Shown here piece by piece: positions 44,190 through 57,388 of a stretch of DNA of 64,000 nt. The notes beneath the pieces were generated by a model that saw only the letters and a program-made list of their open reading frames with translations, was not told where the DNA came from and did no database searches. The DNA comes from Gautieria morchelliformis (Eukaryota; Basidiomycota; Agaricomycetes; Gomphales; Gomphaceae): the NCBI GenBank assembly GCA_015179125.1, contig WHVA01000125.1, positions 179,974 through 243,973 of the forward strand. Direction: 5' to 3'. The first letter of the stretch is position 1; every line of letters begins with the position of its first letter. The position numbers and the translations under genes are program-made.

Positions 44190-45352
44190 TATATCCTCAA
44201 AAGGTGTGATGCTTATATGCATTTTCACCGTATGGGATGTTCATATATACCTATCATCTACTTCATAAAGGTCTGGGTCATATTCCTCATTATCAGCTGG
44301 GTTGCCCAAGGTGCAGGGATACTGACTTAAGGGCCTTGAGGAGCTTTGATAAAGTGTTTCTGTGCTGCAACCTGCACTGCGGTTCTTCTAGTGCACCCCA
44401 GTATGCGTAGGGTGTTCCCTGGTGTAGTGTGCGTACACAGATACGAACATGCAGACCTCCCTCTCTACATCTGTGATGGTCCTCGCAGCAACTCTAGACA
44501 TGAAAGTGGTAATGGTCTTGACTGAATCATCAGGTATTATAAGATTGTGCCTGTTGTCATGATCCACAGGTTTCAAAGCTTTGAGAAGGCTTTCATCTTG
44601 AAGAACAGAAAAGTGGCTCCATTCCATAGTTGATGTGCCACTTTGGGAGTCACTGCACTGTCTTGGAACCATGCAGGAATGCCATCAGGAAATCCACCAT
44701 GAAAGGACTCATCAAAATAATGGAATCCATGCACACCAGACACATGTCAAAAGTGAACAGTTTACATGTTACATTCCAGTAGCAATTCCTTGCCCTTGTG
44801 CATTGTGAAATAGATCCAATAGTGATCTTGGGGATCCTTAATTTTGACAATGCTTTTATATAGATATGCCAGCTGATCCTCCAGTGACACTCTCAGAGAA
44901 ATAGAAACAATACCAAAATCAGAAATGGGGTAAGACCCAAAATCTAGTTGGATTTGATGTGCTCTGTCCCTTCCTTGGTTGTTGTTGAGTAAATCCCAAG
45001 CATGAGTCCAAGGCAGACAGATGTGATGATAGGCAGGACATTTCCTTCTCTTGTGATGCATGTCCTCATTTTACTCTGCACAGCTGCGGTTGGTGCTGTA
45101 GGCCACCTATTGCTCCCATCCAAGTTGCCTTCATTGATCGGTGTTCCAAGCTTGACAATAAAGGCAGTTGATCAATCAGGGAGTGGTAAATTGATCCCTT
45201 TGTATCTGAGGGCTGGGTGCCCCTCGCTCACACTCATGTGAGCTAACTCCGCTATACATGCCAGGACTGGATAGTACGAAGTCAGATCTATGCGATCTGT
45301 TTTGCCTGGTGACCAAAGAGGCAGTTGAACTGCTAATAACCTCAGTAGATAG
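44190..45352. other. Gene-poor stretch, probably transposon body
   Basis: Only short open frames with stops between them, on both strands. Minus-strand fragments such as MCLVCMDSIILMSPFMVDFL and SVSEGHPALRYKGINLPLPD look like decayed coding sequence, but I recognise no family. Codon use and lack of consistent splice sites argue against a live gene. Confidence 0.4.
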
Positions 45353-46420
45353 CATGTCCTCACCCGTAGCGTGTCCTCACCCGTAGCGTGTCCTCACCCG
45401 TAGCGTGTCCTCACCCGTAGCGTGTCCTCACCCGTAGCGTGTCCTCACCCGTAGCGTGTCCTCACCCGTAGCGTGTCCTCACCCGTAGCGTGTCCTCACC
45501 CGTAGCGTGTCCTCACCCGTAGCGTGTCCTCACCCGTAGCGTGTCCTCACCCGTAGCGTGTCCTCACCGTAGCGTGTCCTCACCCGTAGCGTGTCCTCAC
45601 CCGTAGCGTGTCCTCACCCGTAGCGTGTCCTCACCCGTAGCGTGTCCTCACCCGTAGCGTGTCCTCACCCGTAGCGTGTCCTCACCCGTAGCGTGTCCTC
45701 ACCCGTAGCGTGTCCTCACCCGTAGCGTGTCCTCACCCGTAGCGTGTCCTCACCCGTAGCGTGTCCTCACCCGTAGCGTGTCCTCACCCGTAGCGTGTCC
45801 TCACCCGTAGCGTGTCCTCACCCGTAGCGTGTCCTCACCCGTAGCGTGTCCTCACCCGTAGCGTGTCCTCACCCGTAGCGTGTCCTCACCCGTAGCGTGT
45901 CCTCACCCGTAGCGTGTCCTCACCCGTAGCGTGTCCTCACCCGTAGCGTGTCCTCACCCGTAGCGTGTCCTCACCCGTAGCGTGTCCTCACCCGTAGCGT
46001 GTCCTCACCCGTAGCGTGTCCTCACCCGTAGCGTGTCCTCACCCGTAGCGTGTCCTCACCCGTAGCGTGTCCTCACCCGTAGCGTGTCCTCACCCGTAGC
46101 GTGTCCTCACCCGTAGCGTGTCCTCACCCGTAGCGTGTCCTCACCCGTAGCGTGTCCTCACCCGTAGCGTGTCCTCACCCGTAGCGTGTCCTCACCCGTA
46201 GCGTGTCCTCACCCGTAGCGTGTCCCCCGTAGCGTGTCCTCACCCGTAGCGTGTCCTCACCCGTGTCCTCACCCGTAGCGTGTCCTCACCCGTAGCGTGT
46301 CCCCACCCGTAGCGTGTCCCCACCCGTAGCGTGTCCCCACACACATAGCATGCCCTCACAGGTAGCGTGTCCTCACATGCAGTGTGTCCCCAAACATGTA
46401 GTGTGTCCCCAAGTATAGCA
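45353..46420. repeat. 17-bp minisatellite array, roughly 55-60 copies
   Basis: Unit GTAGCGTGTCCTCACCC repeated head to tail with almost no variation from about 45353 to 46290, including a copy lacking one C near 45567 and a shortened copy near 46225. From about 46290 to 46640 the units decay (gtagcgtgtccccac, then gtagtgtgtcccc and similar), so the array grades into diverged repeats on its right side only. Confidence 0.95.
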
Positions 46421-47431: not shown

Positions 47432-47602
47432 GGTGCAAGTCAAATGCCTCGGTAAGGTCAAACACATCAGCAAGGTCAAACGCCTTGGGTAAATCAAACT
47501 TGGGATAGGTCAAACACATTTGGATAAGAAAATTTCTTTCAGATAAGTAAAACACATCTTATTGATTGAAAGTAGCTCTAAGTAACACATCAAGGTAGGT
47601 AA

Positions 47603-48173: not shown

Positions 48174-48201
48174 ACCAATGCTTCACACGGGGGTGTAGGT
48201 C
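48174..48201 (-). mobile_element. Helitron-like 3' terminus C, decayed
   Basis: The sequence ctaggtggataccaatgctt resembles terminus B, but the stem no longer pairs fully. Downstream sequence (gggtaaatcaaacttgggat, gaaagtagct) matches that after terminus B, so B and C are copies of one family. Confidence 0.4.
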
Positions 48202-48362
48202 AAACGCATTGGGTAAATCAAACTTGGGATAAGTAAAACACATCTCATTGCAATTGAAAGTAGCTATATGTAAAGATATCTATCTTAATCCTCAGGTCAC
48301 AAGAGCACGACAGAACTTGACCAATGTGTGGTATTCTGATGCTACGTAGTGACAGTGTAAGG

Positions 48363-49078
48363 TGTTACGTATCGAGATTTCCACTAAGTCGGAACTGGAA
48401 AGGACAGCGGCTTCAACTTATAGGTTGCGCCCCCGATGAACTATCGTCCTAAGTATTTCGGAACTGAGTCGGAAGTCGGAAAGTACTGAACCAAAGGTTT
48501 GGTCGGAACTTGGGTCGGGACTGAGGCGGAAGGCAGAAAGACGGAAAGCGGAGAGACTGAGATCTTGCTAGACTCGCTGTGCTAAGAACAGGAGATGGAG
48601 TGAAGGAAATCAAGTATCGAAGGCGATTATCTGATTGCAGAATAAGAGACATACATGACAGGCTTTTATACAAAGAGCTGAGACAACAGGTAATGACATA
48701 GTACTAAGCAAATTCCGGGGGAAGCGGAAGTCGAGTAGACAATGCGTGGGAACTAACTATTGGGAACAATGGGACTACAAGGGGGTTCAGGGTAAGGTAG
48801 AACAATGGCAAAGAACAAGGGGTCGGGAAAACATATCTGACAATGAATTACAAGGGTGACCGGATATGTGGTTTTGATGAACGATGAAACGGGTCCGGTG
48901 GGTCCGAGTAATTGAGTCGAAAGAACAAGGGAATAGAACAATGGGCGGAATGTCGGAAATATCGGAGGGGCGGAATGTGTTGCGGAAATATCGGAGGGGC
49001 GGAAGGTGTGGAAATATCGGAGGGGTGGAAGGTGTGGCGGAACTGAGGGTCGGAAGTTGGAAATGAACGGTCGTAACA
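48363..49078 (-). repeat. Element 1, 3' LTR
   Basis: 716 bp, TG...CA borders. Contains the LTR promoter (ttttata on plus strand, near 48664) and the 11-mer attatctgatt at 48626-48636. Confidence 0.93.
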
Positions 49079-49200
49079 GTATCTCCCTTCTAAGGTCGAG
49101 CCCTGCGAGACCACAGGTCGGATCACGTGACCTGTGAACAAACGCGTCGGAGTTCTAAAAAATAGGCTGAGGAACAAACACGTCTTCTGTCCATTCCATC

Positions 49201-50432
49201 ATGAGTGCTCCAGTAGACTTCTCTAAAATGTCCAGCGCCAAGATGAAACAGCATTTCGCTGATATGCTCGCGCAAAAGGAATTGGCCGAAAAACGCGAGG
49301 CTGAGGAAGCTGCGCGGAAAGAGAAGGAACGTCGGGAGAAAGAGCGGAAGGAGCAGGAGAGGAGGGAACGCGAACGCCGCGAGGAGGAGGAACGCGTCCG
49401 TGAAGAGAAACGGAAATGGAACGCGGCACGGAAAGCTGCTGCGGACAAAGCTGCTGCAGAGAAGGCGGCTGCGGAGAAAGTTGCTGTGGAGAGGGCGGAA
49501 AAGGAACAGGTGAGTCGGGAATGTCCGGCGGAAAAAGTTCTTGAATCAACTAAAAGTTCTTCCAGGACGAGTCAGAGTCAGACTCGGAAGGTTCGGCGGA
49601 AAGTACACCGTCTCCGGAAGGAAAAGGGAAGCAAAAGGAAATTGCTACCCCGGTGAACCTTGTGGTGGAACGGAAACGTCGGGCGGATGCATTCCAGAAG
49701 GCTCGAAAGGACAAGTTGAGTCAGATGTTGGAATTGCGTGAACTGGGGCCGGAAAATCCCGCGACTAAGAAGCGGAAAACTCGGGACGGCGATGAGGAAA
49801 AGGCCCCTTGTGACCCATGCGAGTCTAAGGGGGCGGATTGCACGTGGTTGAGCAATCCACGGGAAACGTCGTGCGACCAGTGCCGTGACAGGAAAAGGCG
49901 CTGCGTTGTGGATGGGTGCGCTTCGAGGCTGGAGCGAAAGAAACAGAGGGTTGAGGAGTCGAATCCGAAGGCGGAACCGAGACCGAGCGGAGGGAGGGCC
50001 GAGGAATCGTTTCCAGTGACCGGAAAGTCGGGACAGGCGGTTTTGAACCGGTTTACGATGTCTTATCCCCTTCTTGACATTGCCGGGTCGCTGAGGGCCA
50101 TGCGGGAGCAGCAGCGCGAAATCCGGGATATCATGATTGATATGGCCGAGGTTCAACAGCATCAGGTTCTGTCAGTTCAGAACCAGATGACTGTTATGTC
50201 TACCGTACTGCAGCAGTTGACACGGGAAATGCGGTGGCGGAACGATCTGGTCCGGGACCGAATGGATGCGCGGCTTCGGGAGCAAGGAATAGGGGCGGAA
50301 ATGGGTCCGAGCGGGGAGGCGGAAACGAGGGAAGGGGTGGAAACGGAGTTGGTGAGTGTCGAGGTAGGAGAGGCGGAAAAAGAGCCGGAAGCGGAAAAAG
50401 AGGTCGAGGCGGAGACAATGAGGGAGGAGTAG
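49201..50432 (+). CDS. Antisense accessory gene of element 1: coiled-coil protein with Zn2Cys6-type cluster
   Basis: Spliced 391-residue gene on the strand opposite to gag-pol, between the chromodomain and the 3' LTR. Exon 1 49201..49509 encodes MSAPVDFSKMSSAKMKQHFA and a very charged Glu/Arg/Lys coiled coil; intron 49510..49565 (GTGAGT-AG, phase 0); exon 2 runs to 50432. Residues 185-216 have CDPCESKGADC, ten residues, then CDQCRDRKRRC: a C-x2-C-x6-C-x10-C-x2-C-x6-C pattern as in Gal4-type clusters, with the basic residues in the second half. A second helical part follows (LRAMREQQREIRDIMIDMAE) and an acidic Glu-rich tail. No damage seen, in contrast to pol. Function unknown; DNA binding is inferred from the cluster. 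Confidence 0.8.
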
Positions 50433-51232
50433 GGGTATCAAAAGACTTGTAGATAATTTCTTGAAGTGTCGGAAAATAGAGTAACGGAAGAATTTAATCG
50501 GATTTTGACAAATGACTTGAGAACTGTAAGAATCAATGGGCGTCGGAAATGAGGTCGGAAATGACTAGGGTGCGGAAATGGGGCCGGGCTTATCAGGATA
50601 GGACTTGTGGAAATCAGAGACGAGGTCAGAGGCGTGGTCTAGTTCCGTGGCGGAAATCCACGAGGTCTCTTCGTCGGTGTTTTCATAGCCTGCCCACTTG
50701 ACTAGGTACTGGAGTTGGCAGCGGTATCGTCTGTCGAGCTTGGAGTTGAGAATTTCCGAGATTTCATATTCCGGTTCTCCGTCGATGACGACTGGTGGAG
50801 GTGGAGGTTGTTCCCGATTCGGAATTGTATTCGGAACTGCGGGCTCAAGCATAGAGACATGGAATACCGGGTGTACTGCGCGCATATTGTCAGGAAGTTT
50901 GAGGGTGAAAGAACAACTGCCGGCCTTAGCAATGATCTCGTAAGGACCGAGGTATTTCTCAGAGAGCTTCTTCGAGGGGTGAGTGGTGCGGAAGTTTTCA
51001 GCTTTGACAAAGACTTTGTTGCCTATCTCGAATGCCGGTTGCGGAAGTCGTTTCCGATCGGCGGAAGTTTGGTATCTCTTTTGTGCAGCGGAAATGTTCT
51101 CTTGGAGGTGCTGGTGAAGGTCGTCAAGTTCCAAATCTCGGGCTCTTGCAGAGGCGAGGTCACGTTCGGGGTGGATGGCAAGATTCGGGTGGTAGCCCTT
51201 GTTGGCGTAAAAGGGTGAAATTCCAGTGGTAG

Positions 51233-51720
51233 TGTTAGCAACTCGGGGCTATGGCAGGGAAGGTTCGGTAGAGTTCTTAGAAAGCTAGAATCAAATACAC
51301 TCTCTCAGTGAATTTATTGTCACTGATGTATTAATACAATACCTAGAATCAAATACACTACATGATTTTCAGTCAACATGCTATGTAAATATGAAAGATA
51401 CTACTCGCCTCTCTCAGTGAATTTATTGTCACTGAGAGAGGAGCACTATCCTGTCTCAGAAGGCATATACGTACACCCGGCTCTTTAGCGCCCATGGGCT
51501 CGCACGTCGAAGTCATTTCAAACTCCGCTGGGTGCAGCCGCCTGTGAAAATAGAAATAACAAAGTGAAATGGAGAGATAAGGAGTGATTGGAAAATTTCG
51601 AAAATAATCAGAGAAATAGATGCATGGTACAAGAACAATGTGAGAAAGGGTTGAAACACCATACAATAAGTCGAATATATTATGCTTGATTTTGGTGCAG
51701 GAGCATAAATGCACCCAACA
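51233..51720. mobile_element. Insertion in integrase, solo-LTR-like, TSD GGTAG
   Basis: 488 bp beginning TGTTAGCAAC and ending CACCCAACA, flanked by GGTAG at 51228-51232 and 51721-51725. Removing it and one GGTAG restores a continuous integrase frame. TG...CA ends and a 5-bp duplication fit a solo LTR. It contains a 13-bp-arm hairpin (51408..51441) and a partial second copy of the same string at about 51300-51327. Confidence 0.8.
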
Positions 51721-53768
51721 GGTAGCGGAAGGCGCGTTGTTGTAGGCAAATTCCGCGAGCGGAAGAAGGTCGGACCAATTGCTGTGTTGGTAGTTGCAAT
51801 AGACGCGGAGATACTGCTCAAGGGTCTGATTAGTATGTTCCGTTTGTCCGTCTCCTTCGGGATGATAACCGGAAGTGAAGTGGAGCTTCATGTCGAGGGC
51901 CTTGCCGAGCGTGCGGAAAAAGGATGACACGAATTCTGATCCACGGTCGGAAGTGACATGGGAAGGGATTCCGTGCTTGGAAAAGACGTGGAGCACGAAG
52001 AGCTGTGCGAGCTGGGCGGAAGTTATGGTGTCGTAGGTCGGAATAAAGATGGACTGCTTTGTGAGGCGGTCAACGATTACTAGAATGGTATCATAGCCGG
52101 ATGACTTGGAAGTTTCTCAATGAAATCCATGGATATTGAATTCCACGGTTGTTCCGGGATCGGAAGTTGCTTCAGGAGGCCGTAGGGTTTGTGACGTTGA
52201 GGCTTGGCTCGCATACAGGTGGTGCATGACTTGCAGTAGTCTTGGACCATCGTGCGGAGGAGAGGCCAAGTATAGGTACGTCGGATTATGTCAAGGGTTT
52301 TGTTCTGGCCTTGGTGTCCTGAGAGCGGATGATCGTGGCTTTGCTGGAGTACGCGAAGTCGTAGATCGTTGGTATCCGGAACGTAAATCCGGGACTTGTA
52401 CCGGAGAAATCCGTCGGAATCGAGGGACCATCCAGGACTGGTGGGGTCATCGAGGTGGGTTGCAGAGATGGGGTCGGAATGGAGTGCGGAACGGATGTCG
52501 GAATGGAGAGACTCGGTGTCCATAATAATTGAGGCGCGGAGTAGCGGAAACTGCAATGCTGTGGCACGCAGGGACGATGCCAGTTGCTCAGTAGAGAATA
52601 CTGGGCGGAAATTGTGCGGATTAACGCTGGCATAGTCGCTACTTCCCTCTTTTGGGTAGATGTCCCAACGTCTAGTGAGCGCGTCGGGTTTTGCTCCGAG
52701 CTTTCCGGGGCGGAAGCGGATCACCATGTTGAACTGTGAGAGATATTCAGACCAGCGGACTTGACGGCGAGTCAAAATCTTAGTAGTTGCGAAATACTCA
52801 AGGTTCTTATGATCCGTTACAACGTCGATCGGATAAGTTGGACCTTCGAGGTAGTGTCTCCAAATTTTGAAGGCTTCGAAAATCGCAAGTAGTTCCTTAT
52901 CGTGGACGTCGTAGTTGAGTTCCGTGGGGGAAAAGGTGCGGGAATGAAAGGCGATCAGATGAATTTTTCCGTCGTCGGGGGAAATGATGGAAAGAATGGC
53001 GGCTAGTGCATAGTTGGAAGCGTCGGTTTCGAGTACAAGTTGGGCATCAGGAATCCAGAAACCGAGTACAGGAGCCGTAGTGAAGGCCGATTTGAGGGCT
53101 TCAAATGCGGAACGGCATTCCGGAGTGAAATTCCATGGGGCACCCTTCCTGGTGAGATGCGTGAGCGGAACAGTAATGTCGGAAAAATTATAAATGAAAC
53201 GCCGGTAAAAGTTGGCGAAGCCAAGGAAAGACTGTACATCCTTAACACGTCGGGGTTCCGGCCATTCTTGAATTGCCTTGACTTTGTCCTCTGCCATGGT
53301 AAGACCTGTTGGAGAGAGGATGTAGCCGAGGTATTCGACCGTGTCGCGGTGCCATTCGCATTTCTCTGCTTTTGCATAGAGATGGTGTTTGCGTAGACGG
53401 CGGAGTACTTCGCGGACATGTTCCCGATGTTTTTCCGGTGTGTCGGAATAGATGAGGATGTCGTCAATGTAGACTAGGACGCATACGTCGAGGAGGTCGG
53501 AAAATATGTCGTTCATGAATCGCTGAAAAGCGGCGGGAGCATTGGTTAGACCAAAAGGCATGACAGTCCACTCAAAAGCACCGTAGCGGGTGCGGAAAGT
53601 GGTTTTCCACTCGTCACCTTCCCGGATGCGGACAAGGTGGTAAGCGAGCCGGAGGTCAATTTTGGTGTAGATCTTCGCCCTGTGGGGGGTGTCGAGTAAG
53701 TCGGAAATGCGCGGAAGCGGATATTTGTCCTTCTTAGTGAGGGCATTGAGTCCGCGGAAATTGACGCA

Positions 53769-54230
53769 TGTCAGGGGACACCCTGTTTTCCATTTCCAGT
53801 TCCGACTCCATTTCCGACTCCGCTTCCGGTTCCGATTCCATCTCCGCATCCGCTCCCGGGAACGATTCCGCGTCTGGGAGAACTTCCACCAGTTCCGTTC
53901 GCCTTGCCAGTTCCACTCCAATTTCCGACTTCCGCCCCGGAACAGTGTCGGAAATCAAGCGACTCGCATAATAGGTGGCATCAAGGGTCGATCAAGGGTC
54001 AGGGGGATGCAGGGTTGATGGCGGGTGCCAAGTGTTGTCCCTGGCTGCGCAGCGTAGTATAATACGGGCTCGCTGACATTGGGGGTCCTTAGACTTTTCT
54101 CTTTGGATTTCCCCTTGTCAGGTGAGAATCCCCTCTCTTGTATGCTCTGTTCATTTATACATACTTTGGATTTCCCCTTGTCAGTTGTGTGGTAGTGTGA
54201 TCTCCACAACTAGCCAGGGTTGCCCTTACA
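53769..54230. mobile_element. Insertion in reverse transcriptase, solo-LTR-like, TSD ACGCA
   Basis: 462 bp beginning TGTCAGGGGACACCCTG and ending CAGGGTTGCCCTTACA (imperfect inverted ends), flanked by ACGCA at 53764-53768 and 54231-54235. Without it the RT frame joins exactly. It holds a repeated string CTTTGGATTTCCCCTTGTCA (about 54101-54120 and 54164-54183) and eight TTCCG pentamers between about 53800 and 53950, that is, CGGAA on the other strand. Confidence 0.8.
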
Positions 54231-55220
54231 ACGCAGAGGCGGAGAGATCCATCCTTCTTCTTAATGAAAAGGACCGGAGCGCCGTGCGGAGACAGCGAAG
54301 GGCGGATAAAGCCCATGTTGAGATGTTCATCGACGAACTCGCGGAGAGTTAGGAGTTCACTTTGCGAGAGGGAGTAGATTGGTCCAAGGGGCGGAGATGC
54401 TCCTTCTTCCAATCTATCTTCAAATCGTAGGGTCGATGTTCAGCTGGTTTGTCGGCTTTGGCCTTGTTGAACACGTCTGGTAAGTCACGATATTCTTCCA
54501 GAACTGAGCTCATGTCGACCGGAGTGGAAGTCGAGGCGGAACGAGCCTTGACTGAAGCCGAATCGGAGAGGTGAAGCTGGAAAACGGTCGTATCTTCTTG
54601 CCGTTGCAATACGCGGAAAGCGGTGGCGGAGACGAGCGCAATTTGAGGAGCTTTGAGGGACGGAGGTGCTAAAGCGGGACCGGAGTGCGGAACTGAATCC
54701 ACGATCGGAGTTGCAGAAGAGGCCTGGGCCATCTTTGCGGAAGACGTCGGAATAGACGGAAGTTGATCCGGGGTACGGAACTGTATTTGACCCAATGCCC
54801 AGTTAATCGACGGATTATATCGGGTGAGCCAATTGTGTCCTAGTACAACGGAGCAGCTAGCATCTAGCGGAGTAACGTAAAACGTAACTTCATGGTTGTC
54901 CCCAGTAGCGAAACAGATAGACAGATCCACGACTTGAGAAATTGCCGTGTTGGAAGACCCGTCGAAAAGGCGGAGCAGAATTGTCGGAATGTTGCGGGTC
55001 AGAAGTTTATGTTTCAAAACAAAGTCGGAATCGAGCAAACAATGAGTCGAACCTGAGTCGACCAGTGCTGTGAACGGGGGTGCGGAAATGGTGTCGGAAG
55101 TGAGCGGAACAGAGAGGGGGTCGGAGGACGAAAGAGCGGATGCGTTGAGTTTAACCTCGTTTGTCGCACGAATGGGGTCAACACAGCCCTCAGCTCGTGC
55201 GGAGGCCGGAGGACTGCTGA

Positions 55221-55230
55221 CTATTTTTTT
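55221..55230 (-). promoter_or_regulatory. Predicted -1 ribosomal frameshift site at the gag end
   Basis: On the coding strand: TCA AAA AAA TAG. The seven A form a perfect slippery heptamer A-AAA-AAA directly followed by the gag stop. A -1 slip continues as ATA GTC AGC into the protease frame that holds DSGST. Confidence 0.7.
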
Positions 55231-56639
55231 GAATCCGCAGCGGGAGCCGCTTCGGATTTCTCTTCCGTCTTTGCTGCGCGGCCCTTGGCCTTAGCAGCGG
55301 AGGCGGAAGCGCGAGTGCAGTCGCGAGCGACGTGACCTCCTTTGCCGCAGAAAAGGCAAAGGTTGTTGTCCATGCAACGCTGGCGTTCTACAGGGGTTAG
55401 TTTTCTCTCCTTCCCAAGTTTGTCGGAAAGGTCCGGAGTGCTCTTCTGGGCGTTGGTGTTGGAACCAGAGGCCTGGTTATTGCGAGGGGTGTTGTTGTTG
55501 TTGTTCCGGTTACCGGAGTTGGATCCGGAACTGTTGTTGTTGTTGTTTCCGGTGTTGTTATTTCCGGAATTGGTCTTCTTCTTGTCCTTATCAGGCTTTT
55601 TGTCGGAAGACTTGTCGTTCTTGCTCTGGGTGGAAGTTTCACGAGCGATCTCGGAGTGTCTTTCCCAGTAGCGTGAATCGATGGATTGGGCGAGGTTGGG
55701 AAGGTCGGTAAGGGTGGCGGGTTTTCCGATGCGGGCAATTTCATCCTTGATCCGGGATGGCAAGCCCATGTAAAACTGGCGTCGGAGTGCGGCTTCTCCC
55801 CATTGGACTCGAGGAGCGAGCTGCTGAAACGTGACGATATATTTAGCTATCTTATGAGTGTCTTTCATACGAAGCTTATTGAGTTCATTTTCCGCATCGG
55901 CTTCCATGTCAAATGGTCCGAAGTTGCTGCGGAGTTCGGAAATGAAATTGGGGTAATCGTCGGCCCAGTCAACAAGAGCGAATGGATCCATGAGGGCGGG
56001 TTCGAAATAGTCGAGCGCCGTGCCTCGGAGATAGGAAAGGGCATAATTGACCTTTCGTTCGTCGTCGGGAAAGGCGTCGGGACGATCATGGAAATTGAGT
56101 TGAAGCTGGACCAGGAATGGCTGGAGCTTCTTGGGGTCGGAACTGTCGAACTGATCTGGTTCGCGGACCTTTGTCTTGGGGCGTGGTGGTGCTTGGGCCG
56201 GGCGCTGAAGTTGTCCGGCTAGCATGGTGATGGCTTGTGCAAGATCCGGAACTGGCGCGGGCGGAACTGGGTTGGCGGGAATCTGAGGTGGAATTGGAGG
56301 TGGAGGACCGCCTGGGGGACCGCCGGGTGGGCCGCCATGAGGGCCACCTGGGGGTGGTCCTGGTGGAGGTGGTGGTGGTGGAGCTGGGCGTTGGAATGAT
56401 GCTGCTGTTTGTTCGCCACTGCTACTCGTCGAATTCCCGTCATAGTCGGGATTGTCGTCGGGATTAGCGTCGGGAACTTCTTCGAAACGTTGCGGAAAAG
56501 CATCGGAGAGCTCATCGTCGGCACGAGAGCTACCGGAGGGTTCCGCGTGCCTTGGTGCTGCAGATCTAAGACTGCCAAAATAAGAGAGAGCTTCGACAGC
56601 TCCTGCTCGAGCTGAAGTAGCTGTGGTACGAGGAGGCAT
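55221..56639 (-). CDS. Element 1 gag polyprotein
   Basis: Intact 472-residue frame. N-terminal low-complexity region with a Pro/Gly run, then the gag/capsid core (VREPDQFDSSDPKKLQPFLV, ALSYLRGTALDYFEPALMDP, YIVTFQQLAPRVQWGEAALR, FYMGLPSRIKDEIARIGKP), an Asn/Gly-rich stretch and a CCHC zinc knuckle CLFCGKGGHVARDC near the end. The start is only about 20 nt after the primer-binding site, so the leader is very short. Stop TAG is part of the frameshift site. Particle assembly and RNA packaging are the expected roles. Confidence 0.93.
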   Translation of the reverse strand: MPPRTTATSARAGAVEALSYFGSLRSAAPRHAEPSGSSRADDELSDAFPQRFEEVPDANPDDNPDYDGNSTSSSGEQTAASFQRPAPPPPPPPGPPPGGPHGGPPGGPPGGPPPPIPPQIPANPVPPAPVPDLAQAITMLAGQLQRPAQAPPRPKTKVREPDQFDSSDPKKLQPFLVQLQLNFHDRPDAFPDDERKVNYALSYLRGTALDYFEPALMDPFALVDWADDYPNFISELRSNFGPFDMEADAENELNKLRMKDTHKIAKYIVTFQQLAPRVQWGEAALRRQFYMGLPSRIKDEIARIGKPATLTDLPNLAQSIDSRYWERHSEIARETSTQSKNDKSSDKKPDKDKKKTNSGNNNTGNNNNNSSGSNSGNRNNNNNTPRNNQASGSNTNAQKSTPDLSDKLGKERKLTPVERQRCMDNNLCLFCGKGGHVARDCTRASASAAKAKGRAAKTEEKSEAAPAADSKK

Positions 56640-56659
56640 AGTGATAGTTATCGGGTGGG

Positions 56660-56670
56660 AATCAGATAAT
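56660..56670 (-). promoter_or_regulatory. Predicted self-primer binding site
   Basis: Plus strand aatcagataat, 2 nt inside the 5' LTR border. On the RNA strand ATTATCTGATT pairs over 11 of 11 bases with the predicted first bases of the transcript (56936-56946). No match to a tRNA 3' end such as TGGT was seen here. Confidence 0.65.
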
Positions 56671-56672
56671 AC

Positions 56673-57388
56673 TGTTACGTATCGAGATTTCCACTAAGTC
56701 GGAACTGGAAAGGACAGCAGCTTCAACTTATAGGTTGCGCCCCCGATGAACTATCGTCCTAAGTATTTCGGAACTGAGTCGGAAGTCGGAAAGTACTGAA
56801 CCAAAGGTTTGGTCGGAACTTGGGTCGGAACTGAGGCGGAAGGCGGAAAGACGGAAAGTGGAGAGACTGAGATCTTGCTAGACTCGCTGTGCTAAGAACA
56901 GGAGATGGAGTGAAGGAAATCAAGTATCGAAGGCGATTATCTGATTGCAGAATAAGAGACATACATGACAGCTTTTATACAAAGAGCTGAGACAACAGGT
57001 AATGACATAGTACTAAGCAAATTCCGGGGGAAGCGGAAGTCGAGTAGACAATGCGTGGGAACTAACTATTGGGAACAATGAGACTACAAGGGGGGTTCAG
57101 GGTAAGGTAGAACAATGGCAAAGAACAAGGGGTAGGGAAAACATATCTGACAACGAATTACAAGGGTGACCGGATATGTGGTTTTGATGAACGATGAAAC
57201 GGGTCCGGTGGGTCCGAGTAATAGAGTCGAAAGAACAAGGGAATAGAACAATGGGCGGAATGTCGGAAATATCGGAGGGGCGGAATGTGTTGCGGAAATA
57301 TCGGAGGGGCGGAAGGTGTGGAAATATCGGAGGGGCGGGAGGTGTGGCGGAACTGAGGGTCGGAAGTCAGAAATGAACGGTCGTAACA
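56673..57388 (-). repeat. Element 1, 5' LTR with promoter
   Basis: 716 bp. On the coding strand TATAAAA (56973-56979) lies 33 nt before AATCAGATAAT (56946 down to 56936), the predicted transcript start. I count 17 CGGAA on the plus strand, against about 0.7 expected by chance. Confidence 0.93.

Follow-up and report, generated by a model that had tools for sequence, protein, structure and literature searches.

The locus examined here raises the question of why a retrotransposon with a broken pol keeps an uninterrupted gene on its opposite strand, and what such a gene would do for the element that carries it. The element lies in a 64,000-nucleotide stretch of Gautieria morchelliformis DNA (the window), where it occupies 9,026 bp between two LTRs of 716 bp each that differ at 12 of 715 aligned bases (1.7%). 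Its termini are TGTTACGACC...GATACGTAACA, and the CCTTA on either side was taken, by eye, for a target duplication of 5 bp. The LTRs and the Pfam matches to reverse transcriptase (RT), RNase H, integrase, integrase zinc-binding, and chromodomain families place it among the Ty3/gypsy chromoviruses, with the integrase core (rve) falling under the Pfam cut-off in the interrupted pol piece. Pol is broken in this copy, and two of the lesions are insertions with sequence recurring at other Ty3 loci (Table 1). Of 150 listed chromodomain matches in the own genome (3940 candidates), 17 had a stop-free pol frame of exactly 1257 aa by our own count, and the family was therefore recently active and has intact-looking copies. 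Immediately outside the 3' LTR, a 47-bp direct repeat with 94% identity occurs at 47473-47519 and 48197-48243. Further out, at about 45350-46400 (end estimated), lies a minisatellite with the 17-bp unit CCTCACCCGTAGCGTGT, in which at least 62 register copies of a 73-nt reference follow each other in 17-bp steps.

Two exons that together encode 391 aa, uninterrupted by stops, run antisense to pol in the interval that separates the 3' LTR from the chromodomain ORF. Such a gene had been proposed in an earlier note on this DNA, and both its coordinates and its stop-free frame were confirmed. The frame was also clean beyond the window, with exon 2 open in 14 of 14 allele representatives and each of the other five frames stopped in at least 12 of the 14. 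The stretch between the edge of the 3' LTR and the antisense ATG is presumed to be the promoter and 5'UTR of the gene. This leader was recognizable in 20 of 21 copies compared, the exception being L051, where the start was miscalled, and TCACGTGAC was exact in 16 of 21 leaders by eye. A palindromic operator in the leader (CACAGG...CCTGTG) was a weak candidate, kept in only 5 of 21 copies. The Rfam scan at the gathering threshold yielded no match.

Table 1. Features of the Ty3/gypsy element and its antisense gene, in window coordinates.
Feature	Coordinates	Strand	Basis or remark
Ty3/gypsy chromodomain element	48363..57388	-	9,026 bp; LTR pair and pol Pfam matches
3' LTR	48363..49078	-	716 bp; direct repeat of 56673-57388
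Leader, 3' LTR edge to antisense ATG	49079..49200	+	contains TCACGTGAC; presumed promoter/5'UTR
Antisense gene exon 1	49201..49509	+	charged, K/E/R-rich; coiled-coil type by eye
Intron	49510..49565	+	56 nt, GTGAGT...TTCCAG; in-frame
Antisense gene exon 2, including stop	49566..50432	+	open in 45 of 53 copies
Six-cysteine cluster, Zn2Cys6-like, halves order-swapped	49809..49904	+	Cys pattern, Pfam
Long C-terminal coiled-coil-type helix	50031..50282	+	AlphaFold2; segment swapped in mosaic alleles
Acidic tail	50292..50429	+	predicted disordered; pLDDT <50 at exon-2 residues 243-285
Gap between convergent ends of antisense gene and pol	50433..50564	.	4 sense TTCCG
Pol end: Tf2-type SH3 (SH3_Tf2-1) and chromodomain ORF	50565..51134	-	Pfam
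Integrase insertion	about 51285..51720	.	similar stretches at other Ty3 loci (L073, L080), about 84-85% identity
RT-RNase H-integrase zinc-binding part of pol	52080..53921	-	Pfam; initial codons derive from an insertion
RT insertion	about 53768..54230	.	recurs in L084 and L079 at 95-98% identity
5' LTR	56673..57388	-	716 bp

Homologues in other copies were found in large numbers in the own genome (122 Mb). A DNA search gave at least 40 matches scored among 358 candidates. With the window exon 2 protein as query, 135 of 718 candidates were scored and at least 142 rows were obtained. Identities reached as low as 63%, a few copies were split over two rows, and 26 rows contained stops by our own count. 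A diverged allele as query returned at least 134 rows. A set of 53 distinct copies was analyzed, consisting of 33 best matches that remained after removal of five duplicates and of 20 copies from the more diverged rows; all were located via exon 2, so that the presence of this exon is by construction. In 52 of the 53 copies (exception L056), the chromodomain lay next to exon 2 and on the other strand. Exon 2 was stop-free in 31 of the 33 best matches and in 14 of the 20 more diverged copies. In 39 of 53 copies, a full exon 1 was followed by an intron of 40-60 nt that keeps the frame and has a GTGAGT donor, as called by a splice finder that favored this donor, and 33 of these read through to at least 380 aa. 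The remaining 14 copies were either damaged around exon 1 and the intron or missed by the splice finder. Among 12 extra copies, chosen for a good chromodomain and no listed antisense match, exon 2 was unbroken in 4 and damaged in 6, while L067 was hit by a nested element and L064 had mostly lost the gene. In L064, a deletion took most of the antisense gene and kept both gene ends, making it a possible non-carrier. By its antisense position and its presence in most copies, the gene is an antisense ORF between pol and the 3' LTR (aORF-3R).

Purifying selection on the antisense frame was strong. NG86 was applied to the 45 open copies with 986 of 990 pairs binned, and omega, which is somewhat lowered by the use of open copies alone, amounted to 0.19, 0.17, 0.17, 0.17, 0.13, and 0.13 across bins from 55-65% to 95-99.9% protein identity. 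Between subfamilies dS was about 1.2 with an omega of about 0.17. For the same columns read in other frames, omega was 1.19 in forward +1 (86 pairs), 1.08 in reverse 0 (227 pairs), and 0.36 in reverse +1 (518 pairs), and two further frames had zero pairs with dS above 0.3. Third codon positions differed in 27%, vs 13% and 9% of the other two. A gene on the sense strand was rejected as the source of the constraint, since the best sense frame had an omega of 0.36 and stops in 12 of 14 alleles. The broken pol of the window element would fit a left-over frame that is open by chance or as a fossil, and this reading has practically no probability left: dN/dS and frame conservation rule it out, and the gene is multi-copy with its two-exon structure and cysteine signature kept. 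This Ty3 family thus possesses a genuine antisense gene under selection, beyond the one copy of the window.

In the encoded protein, the six-cysteine pattern C-x2-C-x6-C-x10-C-x2-C-x6-C that had been noticed in the window was exact in 50 of 53 copies, and 18 aligned members had a mean column identity of 81%. The Zn2Cys6 domain (PF00172) has the spacing C-x2-C-x6-C-x5..12-C-x2-C-x6..8-C, which the antisense protein fits. The designation of the cluster as Zn2Cys6-type held for its spacing and not for its Pfam score or its internal order. PF00172 was matched at E<=1 by 15 of 18 members (best 0.0009), and the members with reported bits reached 15.2-18.2 vs a cut-off of 21. The two triads were cut apart and matched singly for the window protein alone. 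The first (CDPCESKGADC) aligned to model positions 16-36 with 17.5 bits and E 0.0044, and the second (CDQCRDRKRRC) weakly to positions 1-13 with 11.4 bits and E 0.37. Because these matches are swapped, the halves stand in reverse order relative to the classical domain, and the classical order with the basic, DNA-reading half first is absent from the window protein. The cluster thus resembles a Zn2Cys6 domain with swapped halves that scores below the Pfam cut-off, which was unexpected.

AlphaFold2 placed helices at exon-2 residues 29-59, 104-132, and 156-239 with a mean pLDDT of 58. Values above 80 were reached only at about residues 31-50 and 171-240; the cysteine region and the acidic tail were low, and the model over the cluster was too weak for a fold search. 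Protein database searches, run without a positive control, gave no match at E 0.001 and 0.01 (2127 and 5659 candidates), and a PDB search gave none at E 10. The TRP28 domain (PF04195) was not among the 8 Pfam families matching the 18 members at E<=1.

Identity profiles against the window element were drawn for 15 copies, some of which (e.g., L040 and L054) had an unaligned LTR or RT. L042, L045, L050, L055, and L057 are close to the window element in the RT part (96-98% identity), the chromodomain ORF (94-95%), and the LTR part (91-94%). Identity was lower in the antisense gene, at 69-74% for exon 1, 62-91% for pieces of exon 2, and 36-62% for the intron. Identity of the antisense gene thus falls to about 70% in copies that are 96-98% alike in RT. 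The pair L045-L057 had a pol dS of 0.10, a chromodomain dS of 0.13, and an LTR K of 0.06, vs an antisense dS of 1.28 and an intron K of 1.44. Medians over 190 pairs were 0.87 for antisense dS, 0.80 for intron K, 0.25 for chromodomain dS, 0.20 for pol dS, and 0.11 for LTR K, the last three being inflated by a few copies with unaligned pol or LTR. A local mutation hotspot was rejected as the cause of this island, as antisense divergence does not track pol divergence: over the 190 pairs, identity correlated at -0.04 between exon 2 and pol and at 0.60 between chromodomain and pol.

Maximum-likelihood trees of the antisense gene and of pol for 18 copies, which left out L039, L044, L053, L054, L056, and most close copies, were each rejected for the other by AU tests (3e-22 and 6e-62). 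L059 is a mosaic that was L057-like over the first 450 nt (89-100% per 90-nt bin), 71-77% identical to L057 across the coiled-coil segment, and 99% identical in the ninth bin; L060, L061, L065, and L070 resembled L059 in the frames compared. From the island, the tree conflict, and the mosaic alleles it follows that the antisense gene is an exchanged and internally shuffled cassette, with deep alleles in otherwise young elements. A deeply allelic, reassorting gene within near-identical elements is unexpected in itself. Deep alleles with young flanks suggest an advantage of rare alleles or repeated import.

The sense strand of the element is rich in one short word. TTCCG occurred 113 times in the 9,026 nt, vs 19 expected from a first-order Markov model with both LTRs counted, and had a density of 0.9 per kb in window positions 1-45000. 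One LTR contained 15 TTCCG in sense vs 1 CGGAA, the antisense gene region 20 and 0, and the spacer between the convergent genes 4 and 0. In synonymous shuffles, which hold amino acids and codon usage, pol with its insertion left out reached on average 5.6 TTCCG vs 18 observed (0 of 500 as high) and 2.1 CGGAA vs 7 observed (1 of 500), and the antisense CDS reached 8.4 CGGAA vs 19 observed (0 of 500). The z score of TTCCG in pol was 6.3, vs 3.4-5.0 for the top pentamers of 13 control ORFs of the window. For CGGAA in exon 2 of 15 alleles, the observed count was reached by at most 18 of 300 shuffles in 13 alleles, with no clear excess in L054 (28 of 300) and L051 (79 of 300). The RT insertion (Table 1) contains CGGAA as well and is perhaps a small non-autonomous element with the same word.

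Individual motif positions turn over, and L057 had 7 of 16 in common with the window copy. Conservation of the motif was scored vs the window copy in copies that cover 80% or more of the stretch at an identity of 60% or higher. In the LTR part (47 copies), motif positions changed in 2.4%, vs 9.1% for the remaining positions and 10% for other CpG pentamers; 0 of 5000 sets and 127 of 5000 plain random sets were as low. The motif changed in 6.6% vs 15.3% in exon 2 (52 copies, 0 of 5000 sets as low) and in 5.8% vs 12.6% in the spacer (52 copies, 287 of 5000 random sets as low). In exon 1 and the intron (49 copies), the motif did not stand out clearly from neighboring sequence, and 1283 of 5000 random sets were as low. 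A spacing code of 12 nt was a weak candidate, with 10 of 112 spacings to which the twice-counted LTR contributes. Genome-wide paired-motif matches (284 and 322 vs 13 and 3 for the reversed pattern) stem mostly from one LTR sequence and are not independent evidence. Zn2Cys6 clusters bind two zinc ions and CGG-type DNA, and the CGGAA excess may be a hint of such binding here, which is only suggestive.

The comparison was extended to eight stretches from other Ty3 elements, which form about five families judged by their identity to each other. The TTCCG excess was absent in L071 and in L074, L077, and L078 (two families) and mild in L072 and L075; L072 had 6 vs 3.1 expected, and L081 had 4 in 2.8 kb. 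It was strong in the L073/L076 family, where it lies within pol, on both strands in L076 and mainly as CGGAA in L073. L082 and L083, 3' stretches of yet another family, contained 7 and 10 TTCCG in 2.6 and 3.0 kb, respectively. A milder excess of ATCGC was observed in L074/L077 and of TTCGC in L071/L082, and L080 contains a 15-bp tandem repeat with ATCGCAC.

The sister family L072/L081 is 72% like the pol part of the window and carries beyond its chromodomain an antisense ORF of 291 aa with the cluster CARCAERDYTC...CVWCRTRSLGC and charged and acidic parts. This ORF is multi-copy, with at least 143 rows, 34 of them with stops by our own count. The clusters of the two families gave a weak hhalign alignment (E 0.074, probability 0.8%); common descent of the two antisense genes is suggested by position and cysteine spacing. 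CCTCG was in excess in this family, with 32 vs 5.6 in L081 (z 11.1) and 14 vs 3.4 in L072 (z 5.8), the latter being within the range of the top z scores of 20 host slices of the window (3.1-7.0). In the pol of L072, CCTCG occurred 8 times vs 3.8 in synonymous shuffles (2 of 200 as high) and was not the top word.

HBZ of HTLV-1 is a coiled-coil regulator that is encoded antisense, from the 3' LTR side, and spliced. The window gene is like it by placement; HBZ is a bZIP protein with known function, and the window protein has a Zn2Cys6-like cluster. HBZ is described as nuclear (PMC11963269), and an antisense promoter is reported for the HTLV 3' LTR (PMC7264820). LTR retrotransposons with antisense accessory genes have been described in plants and in Botrytis, where these genes have no assigned function (PMC7264820). 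The same antisense site between pol and the 3' LTR of Ty3 elements is occupied by the plant Retand ORFs with a TRP28 domain (PMC11963269) and by Grande gene23 and in RIRE2 (PMC7264820). The Retand-type ORFs are likewise conserved across copies and predicted to bind DNA (PMC11963269, PMC7264820), and Retand also has family-specific tandem repeats and a proposed regulatory role (PMC11963269). Retand is, however, a non-chromovirus plant lineage with a different domain, and its main text does not contain the word intron; cassette exchange and an element-wide dispersed word, as described here, were not found in the parts available of that account (PMC11963269). Closer in host and element type, brtn of Boty/BcGypsy1 in Botrytis cinerea (Zhao et al. 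2011, Virology 417:248) is an extra antisense gene of a fungal Ty3 chromodomain element, likened here by its mentions in other papers (PMC7264820, PMC8365987, PMC4227169). Tcn1-like fungal chromoviruses are likened by description, as they have an additional ORF of unassigned function, and the main text of their account does not use the term antisense (PMC2864245). A literature search on fungal LTR-element antisense genes, Zn2Cys6 or swapped clusters, and fungal anti-silencers gave no matching fungal case by title and start of the abstract, which does not prove absence in print.

By mode of action, the gene is likened to the VANC proteins of VANDAL transposons, which are also element-encoded and go with a dense, oriented short word (PMC5735166; PMC10398659). 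Words differ between related VANDAL families and protein regions are variable (PMC5735166; PMC10398659). Protein regions are variable here too, and the word is dense and oriented in the window family; CCTCG takes its place in the sister family, but L073/L076 is rich in TTCCG/CGGAA as well. VANDAL is a plant DNA transposon whose motif lies mainly in non-coding tandem repeats (PMC5735166), and for VANC binding and demethylation are proven (PMC5735166; PMC10398659), whereas binding by the fungal protein is inferred.

Taken together, we tentatively propose, at slightly less than even confidence, that the antisense gene encodes an element-borne, sequence-specific self-regulator that would read TTCCG/CGGAA and is exchanged as a cassette. 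The self-regulation or targeting module of the earlier note is plausible, and the dispersed TTCCG adds support to it. A promoter on the inner side of the 3' LTR would probably drive the gene, and splicing and translation would yield a nuclear protein that dimerizes and combines a Zn-cluster head with a coiled coil and an acidic tail. This protein would bind the TTCCG/CGGAA sites accumulated in LTRs, genes, and spacer and thereby recognize and regulate copies of its own family, most likely by anti-silencing and less likely by limiting copy number. Recombination passes the gene between element lineages and also swaps a part of it, the coiled coil, so that deep alleles persist in young elements. 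As an antisense intron stays in the sense RNA that is reverse transcribed, following the logic of reporter cassettes, a retrotransposon can carry a spliced gene with it.

Against this proposal, TTCCG/CGGAA is also frequent in L073/L076 and TTCCG in L082/L083, which lack an established antisense gene. The strand bias of TTCCG outside pol counts against it as well, as an RNA target would also explain this bias. The protein would then bind UUCCG in the sense genomic RNA and aid its packaging, export, or protection in the manner of a second nucleocapsid, to which its many charged stretches and the sense-strand preference of the word in LTR (15:1), spacer (4:0), and antisense gene (20:0) would be suited. 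Such a role appears improbable, since both orientations exceed the synonymous shuffles in pol and the cysteines are spaced as in Zn clusters that bind DNA. In addition, the DNA sites of Arabidopsis VANC21 are one-orientation arrays as well (PMC5735166), and orientation is therefore no proof of an RNA target. Somewhat less improbable, and still unlikely, is that the word is a host-factor site or a by-product of mutation or chromatin, with the protein employed otherwise, e.g., in tethering the integrase to chromatin. The recurrence of the word in L073/L076 and the milder excesses of ATCGC and TTCGC in families without an established antisense gene are in line with this, but words that differ between families of one genome are unlike the outcome of a single host process, and in LTR and exon 2 TTCCG was better conserved than other CpG pentamers.

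The antisense transcript might also outweigh the protein, if pairing of sense and antisense RNA led to small RNAs and the region diverged to escape those of other copies. The transcripts would overlap within the element, and it is at intron and silent sites that the copies have diverged most deeply. However, the low omega, the kept frame, and the kept cysteines argue for selection on the protein, and the divergence is allelic and recombinant and not rate-like, which makes this explanation very improbable. The self-regulator reading can be extended to all Ty3 families of this genome, each of which would have a private self-recognition code of an order-swapped antisense Zn-cluster protein and a matching CpG word present more than a hundred times in the element. 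Its allele pool would be exchanged as at an immunity or compatibility locus, and copies would recognize and activate or limit their own kind. This wider proposal is doubtful, if less so than any of the alternatives above.

For the self-regulator reading, the gene has a candidate target in its own element, a sister protein with a word of its own, and swappable alleles, which makes its function testable by a binding assay. If the reading is true, sequence-specific anti-silencing encoded by transposons would extend from plant DNA transposons to fungal retroelements.
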